NCBI RefSeq assembly: GCF_026342735.1
Contig: NZ_JAPEMM010000001.1
Span: 5,456,001-5,520,000, forward strand
Length of the DNA stretch: 64,000 nucleotides
Source of the DNA: Streptomyces sp. NBC_00193
GTDB taxonomy: Bacteria > Actinomycetota > Actinomycetes > Streptomycetales > Streptomycetaceae
Direction of reading: 5' to 3'
Below the pieces are notes generated by a model. The model did not search any database, had not been told where the DNA came from, and saw nothing but the letters and a program-made list of their open reading frames with translations. The position numbers and the translations under genes are program-made. This document shows, piece by piece, positions 35,928 through 44,092 of the stretch (positions are counted from its first letter, which is position 1; every line of letters begins with the position of its first letter).

Positions 35928-37277
35928 GTGGAACCGTTGCCCACGACAGCACGGACCGCGCCGTCCGCGACCACCACGGGGGTCACCTTGCGTCCAGCCG
36001 CCGGCGCCGCAGACGCACCGGGAAGCTCCGGCTTCTGGGTGGTGGGCGCGGTCCTCGTCCTGCTGATGCTCTCCTCCTCCGTCCCCTCCGCCCTCTACGT
36101 GCTCTACCAGCAGGAGTGGGGCCTGTCCTCCGGCATGATCACGGTGGTCTTCGCCCTGTACGCCGTCACCGTGCTCGGCGGACTCCTGCTGTTCGGCTCG
36201 CTGTCCGACACCCTCGGGAGACGGCCCGTCCTCGCCGCGGGGCTGGTCCTCGCGATCGTCTCCATGGGGCTGTTCGCCTCGGCCCGGGGGCTCGGCCTGC
36301 TGCTCGCCGCCCGCGCCGTGCAGGGGCTCGCGGTGGGCCTGGCCACCGGGGCCATGGGCGCCGCCCTGCTGGAACTCGCCCCGCGCACCCGGCCCGCGCT
36401 CGGCGCCCAGGTCAACAGCGCCGGGCCGACCGTGGGCATCGGCCTCGGCGGCATCGGGGCCGGGCTGCTGGTGCAGTACGCGCCCGCTCCGACGGTCCTG
36501 ACCTACCTGCTGCTGGTGGGGGCCTTCGCCGTCTCGCTGGTCGGGGTGGCCCGGATGGCGGAGAGCGCGCCGGGGCGGGCGGGCGGTGGCGGACCGGGCG
36601 GCAGCGGCGGTCCGGGCGGCGTCGTCGCGGGCGGTGGCACACCGGGCGGTGGCCGGTTCAAGATCACCCCGCACCGGATCCACATCCCCGCCGCCGTGCG
36701 CGGCCGCTTCGCCGTGCTGATCCTGACCATCGTGGCCGTCTGGTCGGTCGGCGGCTTCTACCTCTCCCTCGGCCCGCACCTGGCCCTCTCCCTGCTGGAG
36801 AGCGCCAACTACCTCGTCGGCGGTGCCACCGTGGCCCTCCTCGCCGGCGCCGCCACCGCCGCGCAGCTCCTGCTGGGCCGCACCGAGGCGCTGCACACCG
36901 CCGTCCTCGGACTGCTCGGCCTGCTCGGCGGGCTGGCCCTGGTGCTCCTCGCGCTCGGGCTCGGCTCGGCCCCCGTGTTCCTCGTGGCCACCGCGGTGCT
37001 CGGAGCCGGCTGGGGCGCAGCCTTCCTCGGCTCCTTCCGCGCGCTGAGCGCACTGGCCGAACCCGCGCACCGGGGCGAACTGACCGCCGCCGTCTACGTG
37101 TTCGCGTACCTCGCGATGAGCGTGCCGGCGGTGCTCGCCGGACTGCTCACCAACATCCACGGGCTGCACCGCACCTCGGTCGGCTTCATGGCCACCGTCG
37201 CCGCGGTGTGCGCGCTCGCCCTGCTGGCCACCCTTCGGCTGGCGGCCCGGACCAGGACGCAGGGGAGTACCGCATGA
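35928..37277 (+). CDS. MFS transporter
   Basis: A 449-aa membrane protein with about 12 predicted segments. The first is near 35-55 (FWVVGAVLVLLMLSSSVPSA) and the MFS loop 2-3 motif is GSLSDTLGRRPVL. Between the two halves is a Gly/Pro-rich cytoplasmic loop (AESAPGRAGGGGPGGSGGPG) of about 30 residues. GTG 35928 is preferred; the first 35 residues are a hydrophilic tail. It overlaps the histidine kinase by 4 bp. It is probably a drug or metabolite exporter; the direction and cargo cannot be told from sequence. Confidence 0.88.
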   Translation: MEPLPTTARTAPSATTTGVTLRPAAGAADAPGSSGFWVVGAVLVLLMLSSSVPSALYVLYQQEWGLSSGMITVVFALYAVTVLGGLLLFGSLSDTLGRRPVLAAGLVLAIVSMGLFASARGLGLLLAARAVQGLAVGLATGAMGAALLELAPRTRPALGAQVNSAGPTVGIGLGGIGAGLLVQYAPAPTVLTYLLLVGAFAVSLVGVARMAESAPGRAGGGGPGGSGGPGGVVAGGGTPGGGRFKITPHRIHIPAAVRGRFAVLILTIVAVWSVGGFYLSLGPHLALSLLESANYLVGGATVALLAGAATAAQLLLGRTEALHTAVLGLLGLLGGLALVLLALGLGSAPVFLVATAVLGAGWGAAFLGSFRALSALAEPAHRGELTAAVYVFAYLAMSVPAVLAGLLTNIHGLHRTSVGFMATVAAVCALALLATLRLAARTRTQGSTA

Positions 37278-38842
37278 GCGGGATCCCGGGCGCGCCCGCG
37301 CTGCGCACCGCCCTGCGCGGGCTGGAGATCTTCGAGGGCCTCACCGAGGAACAGCTGGACTGGCTGGTCTCGGTCTCCGAACCCCGGGTGCTCGCCGACG
37401 GCGAGGTCCTCTTCCGGGACGGGGAGGAGGCCACGGGCTTCCACGTGCTGCTCTCCGGGGGCCTGGTGGTCACCAAGGTCGTCGACGGCCGCGAGGAGGT
37501 CCTGACCCGGCACTCCACCGAGGTGGAGAGCGCGGCCGCCGAGGACCACGACGGCAAACCCTCGGCCGCGCACCGGTTCACCGGCGAGCTGCCGCTGCTG
37601 ACGGACGGGGCGTACGTGGCCACGGCCGCGGCGAGCGGCCCGGCCACCACCGTGGTGGCGTACGCGAAGCCGGTCTTCTTCGAGATGCTGACCCGCTGCC
37701 ACGGGGTGGCCGCCGTACTGATCCCCGTACTGGCCTGGCGCATCAAGTCGTCCGAGGTCCAGGCCCGCAAACGGGCGACCGTCGAAGCGCTGGGCACCCT
37801 CGCGGCCGGCCTCGCGCACGAGCTGAACAATCCCGCCGCGGCCGTGGCCCGGGCCGCGCAGGAACTGGCGCCCGCCCTGGACCAGCTCACGCGCACGGCC
37901 CAGGCCTGGGGCGCGGCCGCCACCGATGCCGAGCGCTCCGTCTTCGACCAGCTCGCCGACGAGCTGGACAAGGCGGCGCCGCCGGTGGTCACCGACCCGC
38001 TGGCCCAGGCGGACGCGGAGGAGGAGATCGCCGACTGGGCCGAGGAAGCGGGTGCGGAGCGGGCGGGGCTGCTCGGCTCCGGGGTCTCCGACCTCGGACT
38101 GGACCTGGGCGGGCTGCTGGAGCGGCTGGAGGGGGTCGGCGAGCGGGCGCTGCCCGCGGCCCTGGACCACCTGGCGGCCCTCCTGGAGATCCGTTCGCTC
38201 GCCGCCGAGCTGCGGGCGGCCGGTCCGCGGATCTCCCAACTGGTGTCGGCCACCCGGGATTACGCCAATCTCGACCGGGCCCCCGAGCAGCGCTTCGCCG
38301 TGACCGACGGACTGGAGAACACGCTGGTCGTGCTGCGTGCCAAGCTCGCGGGGATCGGGATCGTGCGCGCGTACGACCCGGACCTGCCCGAACTGACAGG
38401 CTATCCGAGCGAGTTGAACCAGGTGTGGACCAACCTGGTCGACAACGCCGCGGCCGCCATGGAAGGCGCCGGAACCCTCACCCTGCGTGCCCGGGTCGAA
38501 GGCGTCTGTCTTGTGGTGGAGATCGCGGACACCGGCTCGGGCATCCCCGAGGAATCCCTCCCGAGGATCTTCGAGCCCTTCTACACGACCAAGGACGTGG
38601 GCAAGGGCACGGGCCTCGGTCTGCACCTCAGCTACCGCATCGTGACCCAGCGCCACCACGGCTCGATCACGGCCCGCTCGCGCCCGGGGGAGACCCGGAT
38701 GACCGTCCGGCTGCCGCTGGCCGGGACCGATCCGGCCTGCGCCGTGCCGGCCGTGGATCCCCTGGACCCCCTGGATCCCACGGACCCCACAGATTCCACC
38801 GATCCCGCAGATTCCACCGATCCATCCCCATCGAAGAGCTGA
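37274..38842 (+). CDS. cNMP-binding-domain histidine kinase with DPx repeat tail
   Basis: A 522-aa cytoplasmic sensor kinase. An N-terminal cyclic-nucleotide-binding-like domain (about 10-140; IFEGLTEEQLDWLVSVSEPR, LADGEVLFRDGEEATGFHVL) precedes a dimerisation helix with phospho-acceptor His in GLAHELNNPAAAVAR. The catalytic core has the N-box TNLVDNAAAAMEG, G1 DTGSGIPEESLPRIFEP, and G2 FYTTKDVGKGTGLGLHL. The last 35 residues hold eight DPx-type tripeptides (38756-38827). It overlaps the MFS gene (ATGA). Its likely partner is the receiver/TrxR-like protein at 13087-14850, which diverges from the opposite end of the run. Confidence 0.87.
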   Translation: MSGIPGAPALRTALRGLEIFEGLTEEQLDWLVSVSEPRVLADGEVLFRDGEEATGFHVLLSGGLVVTKVVDGREEVLTRHSTEVESAAAEDHDGKPSAAHRFTGELPLLTDGAYVATAAASGPATTVVAYAKPVFFEMLTRCHGVAAVLIPVLAWRIKSSEVQARKRATVEALGTLAAGLAHELNNPAAAVARAAQELAPALDQLTRTAQAWGAAATDAERSVFDQLADELDKAAPPVVTDPLAQADAEEEIADWAEEAGAERAGLLGSGVSDLGLDLGGLLERLEGVGERALPAALDHLAALLEIRSLAAELRAAGPRISQLVSATRDYANLDRAPEQRFAVTDGLENTLVVLRAKLAGIGIVRAYDPDLPELTGYPSELNQVWTNLVDNAAAAMEGAGTLTLRARVEGVCLVVEIADTGSGIPEESLPRIFEPFYTTKDVGKGTGLGLHLSYRIVTQRHHGSITARSRPGETRMTVRLPLAGTDPACAVPAVDPLDPLDPTDPTDSTDPADSTDPSPSKS

Positions 38843-38854
38843 AAGGGAGTCGAC

Positions 38855-39196
38855 ATGCCCAAGTACGACATCTCCACGCTGCACCCGGTGTTCGTCCGGC
38901 AGATGGACGCGCTCGCCGCCCTGGACATCGAGGCGGTCATGAAGAACTACACCGACGACGCCGTGCTGTTGCGCTTCGAGGGCGTCTCCGTCGGCATCGA
39001 CGCGGTGCGCGAGACGTTCACCGGGTACCTGACGGTGAAGCCCACCCTCGTGGAGCTCCAGGAGTACGTCGAGACCGACGACACCATCTTCTACCGGGCG
39101 ATCATGAACCTGAACGGCGAACCGGAGCACGCGTTCGGGACGCTCGTCGTCCGCGATGGCCGGATCTGGCGGCAGACTGCCGGATTCGGCGGCTGA
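38855..39196 (+). CDS. NTF2/SnoaL-like protein (fourth in the window)
   Basis: A 113-aa NTF2-fold protein: HPVFVRQMDALAALDIEAVM, then NYTDDAVLLRFEGVSVGIDA, ending GTLVVRDGRIWRQTAGF. It belongs to the SnoaL/SgcJ-like ketosteroid-isomerase fold. AAGGGAGT precedes ATG 38855, 12 bp after the kinase stop. It closes the contiguous run; a 101-bp gap follows before the TMEM175 gene. Function unknown. Confidence 0.82.
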   Translation: MPKYDISTLHPVFVRQMDALAALDIEAVMKNYTDDAVLLRFEGVSVGIDAVRETFTGYLTVKPTLVELQEYVETDDTIFYRAIMNLNGEPEHAFGTLVVRDGRIWRQTAGFGG

Positions 39197-39297: not shown

Positions 39298-39945
39298 ATG
39301 GAAACGGAAACCGGCCGGGTCGAGGCATTCAGTGATGGCGTATTCGCGGTCATCATCACCATCCTTGTCCTGGAATTGAAAGTTCCGGAAGAAACCGGAT
39401 CCGACTTCTGGCACGGAGTGCGCGAGCAGTGGCCGCACTACGCCGCCTATGTGGTGAGCTTCCTCATCATCGGAGTGATGTGGGTGAACCACCACACCAT
39501 CTTCAGTCACATCAAGCGCGTCGACCGTCCTTTGCTGTTCCTGAACCTCCTGGTGCTGATGGTCGTCTCGGTGGTCCCGTACACGACCAATGTGCTCGCC
39601 GAACACCTCATGGAGGAAGGCGGGTCGGCCAATGCGGCGGCCGTCCTCTACAGTCTGCTCACCGTGGCCTACGCCTTGGCGTTCCTGGCCTTCTGGTGGT
39701 ACGTCACCCGGGTCGGACACCTCTTCCACGATCAGGTGGACAAGGCCGGCGCCCGAGCCACCAGGGTCCGCTTCGGTCTGGGTGCGATCGCCTACCCTTT
39801 GACCGTCGTCCTGGCCTTCGTCTCCGCTCCGCTCACTCTCGTCGCACACTTCCTGATCGCGCTCTACTATGCGGCGAACCAGATCCCCATCCCCCTCGTG
39901 GTAGAGGAAGAGCGGCTCGAAACTGCCAGCGACCTCAGGAAGTAG
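39298..39945 (+). CDS. TMEM175-family (DUF1211) potassium-channel-like membrane protein
   Basis: A 215-aa protein with six predicted membrane helices. The family signature RVEAFSDGVFAVIITIL is at the start (R-x3-FSDGVFA, the K+ filter helix). VSFLIIGVMWVNHHTIFSHI is the second hallmark. GGGGAGG lies just before ATG 39298, the strongest RBS in the neighbourhood. Bacterial TMEM175 proteins form weakly selective K+ channels. It is transcribed in the direction of the upstream run but separated by 101 bp. Confidence 0.9.
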   Translation: METETGRVEAFSDGVFAVIITILVLELKVPEETGSDFWHGVREQWPHYAAYVVSFLIIGVMWVNHHTIFSHIKRVDRPLLFLNLLVLMVVSVVPYTTNVLAEHLMEEGGSANAAAVLYSLLTVAYALAFLAFWWYVTRVGHLFHDQVDKAGARATRVRFGLGAIAYPLTVVLAFVSAPLTLVAHFLIALYYAANQIPIPLVVEEERLETASDLRK

Positions 39946-40017
39946 CCGCCGGGACCTACGGCCGATATCCGCGGTCAAGTAGGGTAATGGATCTAGCTGG
40001 TCGCGGGGGAGGCCCAG

Positions 40018-41328
40018 ATGGCTCGCGTAGTCCTGCCGGAGGAATCCACGAAGGAAATCTCCGAATTGATCGATGTTCTGATCTCGCTCTTCTTCGAGTC
40101 GTTACCCCGGCGGGACCAGCGAAACTGGGCCCGCGTATACCTGAACGGCCTGGTGCGGACCAACGGCAAGAAAACAATTCGTAACATCGCCGGAACCGGG
40201 GCCAGTTCCGTCGAGCAGAGCCTCCAGCAGTTCATCAGCAAGTCCCCCTGGGACTGGACCCCCGTCCGCCGCTCCCTCGCCCAGCACCTCGAACGCACCG
40301 CGCAGCGCCCGCTGGCCTGGGTGGTGCAGCCCATGGTCATCGAGAAGGCGGGCGACCGATCGGTCGGCGTGGGGCGGCAGTTCGTCCCCCAGCTGGGCCG
40401 CACCGCCAACTGTCAGCAGGCCAGCGGGATCTGGCTCACCTCCAGCGATGCCGGCTTCCCCGTCGAATGGACCCTCACCCTCCCCGGGCCCTGGACGGCG
40501 GAACTCCTGCGGCGCCGGCGGGCCGGGATCCCCGACACGGCCCGCTCGCTCACCCCCGCACAGGACGCGATACACGCGGTCCAGCGGATGGCCGCCACCT
40601 GGCAACTCCAGCGCAGGCCCGTGGTGATGGAAGTCTCCAACAGCGAACTGCCGCAGTGCATCGAGTCGTTCTCCCTGCAGGACATCCCCTTCGTATTCAA
40701 AGTGGACGGCACCCTGCCCGTCTCCTTCGGCGGGGCGGGCCGGCACAAACCCGGCCCGCACACCGCGCCGGCCCGCGAGCTCATCGACTCCCTGCGCTCC
40801 CAGCGCCGCGTCGTCGAATGGACCCGGCACGGCCGCGCCGAGGGAGCGGTCACCCTGCTCACCTCGGCCGCCATCTTCGCCACCCCCGGCGAGGACCGCC
40901 TCGTACCGGCGCCGCCCACCCCGCTGCTGCTCGTCGGGGCCTGGACCGAGACCGCCCTGCTGCCCTCGGAGTTCTGGATCACCAACATCGGAGACCGGCC
41001 GCTCGCGCAGCTGTTCCTCCTCGCCAAACTCACCGACCGGGTCGCGCTCGACTTCACCGAGGTCTGCGAGCCCGCCGGAATCCGCGATTTCGAGGGCCGC
41101 TCCTTCCGCGGCTGGCACCACCACGCCACCCTCGCCAGCGTCGCCCACGCCGCGATGCTGCTGGGCGCGCGCGGACGGGGCCCGCACCCGTCCCCGCCCG
41201 AGCCGTACCCCGGCCCGGCCCGGACCGCCCCCACCCGTACGGTCGCCGCCCACGCCGCGGGCCCTGCGACGCTGCCGCCGAGACCGGTCATCCCCGGGCA
41301 GAGCCCGCGCCGCGAGTACATCCGCTGA
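40018..41328 (+). CDS. IS701-type transposase, apparently domesticated and catalytically inactive, with TTA codon
   Basis: A 436-aa protein homologous to IS701 (DDE_5) transposases: RNWARVYLNGLVRTNGKKTI, SVGVGRQFVPQLGRTANCQQ, DFEGRSFRGWHHHATLASV. Where active members read W-V/I-I-DDT-x-FPK-K, this one reads WVVQPMVIEKAGDR, so the first aspartate pair is gone; the second site (family VVADAGYGD) reads VVMEVSNSE. The downstream Glu is kept (TEVCE). No terminal inverted repeats or target duplications were seen. Codon 29 is TTA (40102-40104). The stop overlaps xdhC (TGATG). It may be a DNA-binding regulator derived from a transposase. The comparison is from memory. Confidence 0.82.
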   Translation: MARVVLPEESTKEISELIDVLISLFFESLPRRDQRNWARVYLNGLVRTNGKKTIRNIAGTGASSVEQSLQQFISKSPWDWTPVRRSLAQHLERTAQRPLAWVVQPMVIEKAGDRSVGVGRQFVPQLGRTANCQQASGIWLTSSDAGFPVEWTLTLPGPWTAELLRRRRAGIPDTARSLTPAQDAIHAVQRMAATWQLQRRPVVMEVSNSELPQCIESFSLQDIPFVFKVDGTLPVSFGGAGRHKPGPHTAPARELIDSLRSQRRVVEWTRHGRAEGAVTLLTSAAIFATPGEDRLVPAPPTPLLLVGAWTETALLPSEFWITNIGDRPLAQLFLLAKLTDRVALDFTEVCEPAGIRDFEGRSFRGWHHHATLASVAHAAMLLGARGRGPHPSPPEPYPGPARTAPTRTVAAHAAGPATLPPRPVIPGQSPRREYIR

Positions 41329-42491
41329 TGCTCGACATCGCCGAAGAGCTACGCGCGTGGTGCGCCGCCGGACGGGACTTCGCGGTGGCCACGGTGGTCG
41401 CCGTCAGCGGCAGCGCACCGCGCGGCCCGGGCGCCTCCCTGGCCGTCGACGCCGGGGGCACCGCACTCGGCTCCCTCTCCGGGGGCTGTGTCGAATCCGC
41501 CGTGCACGAGCTGTGCCTGGAGGCGATCACCTCCGGGCGGAGCAGCGTGCACCGCTTCGGATACAGCGACGACGACGCCTTCGCGGTAGGGCTGACCTGC
41601 GGGGGCGTCCTCGACGTGCTGATCACCCCGGTGCGCCGCCATGACCCCGTGCGGCCCGTCATCGGCGCCGTGCTCGACGCGGCCTGCCACGGAGCCCGCT
41701 CCGCACTGGGCCGGGTGGTCCACGGGGCGCCGGAGCAGCTCGGCCGGGCCATCGCCGTGCACGCCGACGGTTCCTACGAGGGACGCCTCGGCGGGGGCGC
41801 CGAGCTGGACCGGGCCGCCGCCGAGCGGGTCCGGGGCTGGCTCGCCGCGGGCCGCACCGGCACCGCCGAGCTGGGCACGGCCGGCGGGCTCTGCGGGCAG
41901 CCGCTGACCCTGCTCGTCGAATCGGCCGCCGAGCGGCCCCGGCTGCTGGTCTACGGGGCCATCGACTTCGCCGCCGCCCTCACCCGCATCGGCGCCTTCC
42001 TGGGCTACCGGGTCACGGTGTGCGACGCCCGGCCCGTCTTCGTCACCCCCGCCCGGTTCCCCGACGCGGACGAGGCGGTCGTGGACTGGCCGCACCGGCA
42101 CCTGGCCGCGGAGTGGGAAGCGGGCCGCCTGGACTCCCGTACGGCGGTGTGCGTCCTGACCCACGACGCCAAGTTCGACGTCCCGCTGCTGACGCTCGCG
42201 CTGCGGCTGCCGCTCGGGTACGTGGGAGCCATGGGCTCGCGCCGCACCCACGAGGAGCGGGCGCGGCGGCTGCGGGCGGAGGGCGTGCCGGCGGCCGCGC
42301 TGGCCCGGCTGCGCTCACCGATCGGCCTGGACCTCGGCGGGGCGACCCCCGAGGAGACCGCGCTCGCCATCGCCGCCGAGTTCACGGCCGTGCGGTACGC
42401 GGGAACGATTCTCCCGCTGGCCTGGAGCAAGGGCGCCGTCCACGGCCGGGCGGACCCGCCGCTGCCCGTCCCCAGGGCCAAGGTCCCGTAG
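41328..42491 (+). CDS. XdhC-family molybdenum cofactor maturation protein
   Basis: A 387-aa XdhC/CoxF-family protein, which binds and sulfurates molybdenum cofactor before insertion into xanthine dehydrogenase-type enzymes. The N-terminal XdhC domain has FAVATVVAVSGSAPRGPG and GSLSGGCVESAVHE; the C-terminal Rossmann domain has PRLLVYGAIDFAAALTRIGA and GYVGAMGSRRTHEERARRL. The nucleotide loop reads YGAID rather than the usual GAGH, a possible change. ATG 41328 overlaps the transposase-like stop. It is probably dedicated to the hydroxylase at 32136-35901, though 5.4 kb away. Confidence 0.88.
   Translation: MLDIAEELRAWCAAGRDFAVATVVAVSGSAPRGPGASLAVDAGGTALGSLSGGCVESAVHELCLEAITSGRSSVHRFGYSDDDAFAVGLTCGGVLDVLITPVRRHDPVRPVIGAVLDAACHGARSALGRVVHGAPEQLGRAIAVHADGSYEGRLGGGAELDRAAAERVRGWLAAGRTGTAELGTAGGLCGQPLTLLVESAAERPRLLVYGAIDFAAALTRIGAFLGYRVTVCDARPVFVTPARFPDADEAVVDWPHRHLAAEWEAGRLDSRTAVCVLTHDAKFDVPLLTLALRLPLGYVGAMGSRRTHEERARRLRAEGVPAAALARLRSPIGLDLGGATPEETALAIAAEFTAVRYAGTILPLAWSKGAVHGRADPPLPVPRAKVP

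Positions 42492-42565: not shown

Positions 42566-44092
<1,527 letters not shown>

Follow-up and report, generated by a model that had tools for sequence, protein, structure and literature searches.

A conserved IS701-like gene of Streptomyces with a degenerate catalytic triad is most likely a domesticated transposase

Introduction

The window analysed here, a 64,000-nucleotide stretch of Streptomyces sp. NBC_00193 DNA, contains a gene that an initial annotation read as an IS701-type transposase without its catalytic aspartates, perhaps a domesticated DNA-binding protein kept in an operon. Domesticated transposases are familiar from eukaryotes; bacterial cases are less well documented. The locus poses two questions, namely whether the gene belongs to a mobile element, a decaying relic or the host, and what its product does.

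Results

The gene is real, starting with ATG and ending with TGA at 41326-41328:

40018-41328, + strand: degenerate-triad IS701-like gene, 436 amino acids, single copy (NCBIfam IS701, 284.6 bits; 36 named orthologues)

Its product scores well above the curated cutoff of 150 bits for the NCBIfam IS701 profile NF033540, and a Pfam DDE_5 match covers residues 25-204. The IS701/DDE_5 signatures first reported for the sequence (SVGVGRQ, GRTANCQ and FEGRSFRGWHHH) are all found in the protein. The AF2 model (pLDDT 80.5, core ~90) aligns almost from end to end with Tn5 (IS50) transposase (Foldseek E 6e-11; Z 24 over 341 residues) at a sequence identity of only ~9%. The profile score, the SVGV, NCQ and GRSxxGWHxH motifs and the predicted Tn5-like DDE fold are thus common to this protein and the IS701 transposases, placing it in that sequence family. 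Three regions are distinguished:

40039-40311, + strand: helical domain at the N terminus, residues 8-98, corresponding to the Tn5 DNA-binding domain (AF2 model, Tn5 alignment)
40312-41172, + strand: RNase H-like core with an insertion and the C-terminal GRSFRGWHHH helix, residues 99-385 (AF2 model, Foldseek, Tn5 alignment)
41173-41325, + strand: disordered, fast-changing tail, residues 386-436 (pLDDT <50 from residue 388; alignment)

The N-terminal domain binds DNA in Tn5. Here it has a net charge of +8 over residues 20-98, is among the best conserved parts of the protein and carries more positive charge than its counterpart in intact enzymes (average +4.6 versus +1.1). With this Tn5-like domain kept and basic in the model, binding of DNA by the protein is plausible.

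Alignment with intact IS701 transposases located the catalytic columns at the following codons:

40327-40329, + strand: Q104, column of catalytic Asp 1 (D1), strand 100-109 (alignment, AF2 model)
40630-40632, + strand: E205, column of catalytic Asp 2 (D2), end of strand 202-205 (alignment, AF2 model)
41044-41046, + strand: A343, column of the catalytic Glu, helix 338-350 (alignment, AF2 model)
41092-41094, + strand: E359 in FEGRS, a conserved Glu initially taken for catalytic (alignment)

The sequence reads VVQPMVIEK at D1 and VVMEVSNS at D2, versus VVDDTGFPK and VVADAGYG in the intact enzymes, so the reported loss of both aspartate sites was borne out. The downstream Glu said to be retained was misassigned. 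E359 is fully conserved but non-catalytic; the catalytic Glu of intact relatives presumably lies in RWRIEHDY, ~16 residues upstream of the FEGRS Glu, an assignment we base on the place of the conserved acid (RWxIE) on the last core helix and on what is known of IS4/Tn5-type transposases. The corresponding residue here is A343 (RVALDF), and the alignment rules out a retained catalytic Glu. In the model, Q104 lies on the first RNase H strand, E205 ends its strand and A343 sits within its helix, where D, D and E are located in the RNase H fold. None of the three catalytic residues is therefore in place, and the central observation of the initial annotation stands.

The triad is broken in all 36 orthologues too, in which D1 is Q (31) or R (5), D2 is E (34), Q (1) or D (1), and the third position is S (23), A (11), Q (1) or D (1). 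An acid at D1, a Glu at the third position and a DDE triad were each found in 0 of the 36. Catalysis through altered metal ligands (E205, D345 and E359), either as a nuclease or in continued transposition, could be proposed since D2 is still acidic in this lineage and many members of the wider clade described below combine a retained D2 with D or E in the third column. We consider this highly improbable given the D1 column, a third position that is mostly S or A, and the lack of ends and multiple copies.

A scan of 300 bases on either side of the gene detected no terminal inverted repeats (best score 9, chance p 0.65), in agreement with the initial annotation, while the same scan recovered repeats of 18 to >100 bp at 12 of 16 intact-triad IS701 loci. 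With these working controls, hidden terminal repeats at the gene were rejected. Thirteen other degenerate loci likewise gave no convincing repeats, the lowest p, 0.03, being no more than 14 tests should yield by chance. Its own genome holds one copy of the gene, whose next relative there is 37% identical, in contrast to intact-triad IS701 genes, of which a genome carries several copies with equal scores. That relative is a second degenerate IS701-like gene (G000:C1:3466502-3467638, L112), which adjoins a TetR gene and reads VVPAVLPKRG at D1. In summary, none of the features of an active element, i.e., an intact D-D-E triad, terminal inverted repeats and mobility, was found for the gene in the window; it differs from IS701 transposases in its three changed catalytic positions, its lack of terminal inverted repeats and its single syntenic copy.

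Orthologues of at least 88% identity occur in 12 of 150 congeneric genomes (its own included), with nothing between that level and 44%. In all 12, the gene lies between a TMEM175-like gene and xdhC; guaB follows in 11, and the twelfth contig ends after xdhC. The 36 orthologues mentioned above, found in a named collection in S. lavendulae, S. virginiae, S. katrae, S. xanthophaeus, S. avidinii and relatives, are 70-96% identical and all uninterrupted (one runs off the contig end). Under a GY codon model in IQ-TREE with 16 taxa, omega was 0.050 for the whole gene and 0.037 for the folded core, compared with 0.055 for the TMEM175-like gene, 0.060 for the histidine kinase gene, 0.070 for xdhC and 0.020 for guaB. 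Pairwise omega by another method was 0.13-0.28, well below 1. These data, which supply the conservation and synonymous/nonsynonymous check proposed initially, indicate strong purifying selection.

Could the gene nonetheless be a recent dead copy drifting towards a pseudogene? The rearranged remnant in Streptomyces sp. NRRL F-2580 (L154, 3989-5110), where the gene is reduced to its C-terminal part and precedes a shortened xdhC, would fit this idea. Uninterrupted orthologues down to 70% identity and an omega level with that of the neighbours refute it, provided that the selection result holds in a wider sample, and we regard its probability as negligible. Instead, a fixed single-copy gene under purifying selection is what was found. 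Together with the broken triad in every orthologue, the lack of ends and the clade-wide loss described below, this strongly supports the proposed domestication, and the gene is almost certainly a domesticated IS701-type transposase. Because catalysis and ends are lost while fold, locus and selection are kept, a host function is implied.

The surroundings of the gene comprise the following features:

37274-38842, + strand: cyclic-nucleotide-binding (cNMP-binding) histidine kinase gene, linked partner (named by resemblance)
38855-39196, + strand: SnoaL-like gene, linked partner (named by resemblance)
39298-39945, + strand: TMEM175-like membrane protein gene (named by resemblance)
39955-39983, + strand: conserved upstream element CCTACGGCCGATATCCGCGGTCAAGTAGG, an imperfect inverted repeat (conservation; once in genome)
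39989-40017, + strand: conserved leader with ribosome-binding site GGATCTAGCTGGTCGCGGGGGAGGCCCAG (conservation)
41328-42491, + strand: xdhC, clade-specific second copy, its start overlapping the IS701-like stop by one base (sequence comparison)
42650-44092, + strand: guaB-like gene, downstream neighbour kept even without xdhC

The reported TGATG fusion to xdhC is real (TGA 41326-41328, ATG 41328-41330), and 27 of the 36 orthologues share it. The operon proposed from it stands in part: this coupling exists in most orthologues, but eight genomes (L121, L127, L138, L139, L140, L144, L147 and L149) keep the IS701-like gene with no xdhC downstream, which excludes xdhC as an essential functional partner. 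Five of the eight also lack the upstream xdh and TMEM175-like genes, and there the IS701-like gene still lies beside guaB. The genome from which the window is taken also has the genus-wide xdhC, at C1:229536-230636, 64% identical to the clade-confined copy.

The leader is retained where the preceding gene is gone (L138, L144 and L147), which suggests that the IS701-like gene has its own promoter. The element at 39955-39983, with arms CCTACGGCCG...CGGTCAAGTAGG, is possibly a promoter or operator. The genome contains this exact form only once, and a role as a genome-wide operator was rejected.

The cNMP-binding histidine kinase and SnoaL-like genes are steadier partners than xdhC. Among 296 genomes, all 17 kinase orthologues of at least 85% identity have the IS701-like gene nearby. 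The gene order relative (45-47% identical), kinase, SnoaL-like recurs in S. noursei and Kitasatospora sp. MAP5-34, where the first two genes overlap by 4 bases. Several genomes keep the IS701-like gene without the kinase, so the kinase is not essential to it.

Triads are broken in the 35-47% relatives of the protein as well. In a tree of 89 sequences, 66, including the lineage in the window, form a monophyletic degenerate clade (support 100/99) adjoining a small intact-triad IS701 group that shares the FEGRS signature. Of 60 aligned members of the clade, 59 have no Asp at D1 and 42 retain D2; 30 carry D or E in the third column and the others a different residue. A rule that the first Asp is always lost would be inexact clade-wide: L062, L195, L197 and L198 keep Asp at D1, none with a full triad. 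The clade extends from Streptomyces to other actinomycete families, among them Pseudonocardiaceae (Streptoalloteichus).

At 39 loci, 17 of 41 clade genes adjoin a PucR/GAF regulator gene, all 17 in convergent orientation. Clade loci also carry genes for class-II DAHP synthase, chorismate-binding enzymes, isochorismatase, DhbA-like dehydrogenase, TetR and SARP. The end sequence of the intact sister group, CTAGTAGTGCTTTGTTAGGT, was found at p<0.05 in 1 of 49 regions upstream of degenerate-clade genes, which is chance level, and a remnant of it was thus rejected as a binding site of the clade proteins. A search of the literature for IS701, domestication and Streptomyces, with most subscription papers outside its coverage, returned no description of this clade, which is a large and apparently undescribed family of dead IS701 enzymes.

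Discussion

The basic, conserved N-terminal domain and the linkage to regulators make a DNA-binding regulatory role the simplest explanation for the retained gene. Based on these findings, we propose a plausible history and mode of action. The ancestor of a large actinomycete clade would have lost the DDE centre and the transposon ends while keeping the Tn5-like architecture, and from then on the gene would have been passed down like any other chromosomal gene, subject to purifying selection. Its product is most likely a site-specific DNA binder that modulates transcription of neighbouring genes; it would contact DNA through its RNase H-like scaffold and conserved N-terminal domain and leave it uncut. 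It may act in concert with a nearby signalling protein, the cNMP-binding histidine kinase here and a PucR/GAF regulator elsewhere; we infer that the protein binds DNA, that it regulates and that the kinase provides an input. Taken as a whole, we hold this account to be probable. Three observations count against it. Convergent placement, as seen with PucR, is an unusual layout for a regulator and its target. The 49 upstream regions hold no remnant of the ancestral ends. In addition, the kinase is dispensable to the gene, being absent from several genomes that keep it.

The main rival is that the domesticated protein acts through protein contacts, e.g., with the linked histidine kinase, or binds RNA. 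The tight kinase linkage in two distant lineages, the 4-base overlaps with other genes (such as the maltokinase-cap gene of L074 and L075) and the lack of a target motif in the 49 upstream regions are all consistent with it. It is set back by the basic, well-conserved domain that contacts DNA in Tn5 and by the genomes that keep the gene without kinase and xdhC, and overall we judge it unlikely.

That a transposase protein can regulate without cutting is known from the Tn5 inhibitor, a shortened product of the Tn5 transposase gene. Unlike this inhibitor, the gene studied here is a full-length, stand-alone host gene. By analogy, its product might act in trans as an inhibitor of related active IS701 elements, given a full-length Tn5-like fold without a catalytic centre and the presence of 1b7e among the structure matches. 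However, its identity to the sister group of intact-triad IS701s is only ~29%, some genomes have a single IS701 match that aligns with the degenerate members (G015), the 49 regions upstream of degenerate-clade genes hold no end-like sites, and the gene contexts are metabolic and regulatory; inhibition in trans is accordingly quite improbable. We retain the DNA-binding modulator as the preferred reading.

In its single copy, vertical inheritance, lost ends and selection, the gene resembles domesticated transposases in general. It differs from them in belonging to a large, diverse IS701-derived actinomycete clade tied to regulators and secondary-metabolite genes. It is quite possible, and we put it forward tentatively, that the clade is an ancient, diversified actinomycete family of cluster-situated regulators that lost catalysis early, spread to many lineages, work with PucR/GAF regulators or cNMP-binding histidine kinases, and have gone unnoticed under the label 'IS701 family transposase'. 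Dead IS701 proteins thus make up an entire clade and lie beside signalling genes and chorismate-derived biosynthetic clusters, with strong selection measured for the lineage in the window. If these proteins are regulators, a gene class dismissed by annotation as mobile-element noise would offer a handle on silent antibiotic clusters, and the degenerate clade with its intact sister group would be a good case for studying the transition from transposase to regulator.

The gene neighbours of several clade members are reminiscent of those of pzm10, a 432-amino-acid 'transposase' of the penzonemycin cluster that adjoins DAHP synthase, DhbA-like dehydrogenase, isochorismatase and anthranilate synthase genes; the likeness is one of context and annotation, and the portion of the source covered here assigns pzm10 no role (PMC9323291). 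Other members lie in different surroundings. The degenerate IS701-like genes at L074 5388-6788 and L075 5101-6411 overlap a neighbour gene by four bases in the same layout in both genomes, the neighbour's product in L075 having a maltokinase N-terminal cap domain. In both L095 and L096, a large SARP/BTAD-related regulator gene adjoins a degenerate member whose D2 residue is Pro (VVLP), and the two genomes have the same neighbours there.
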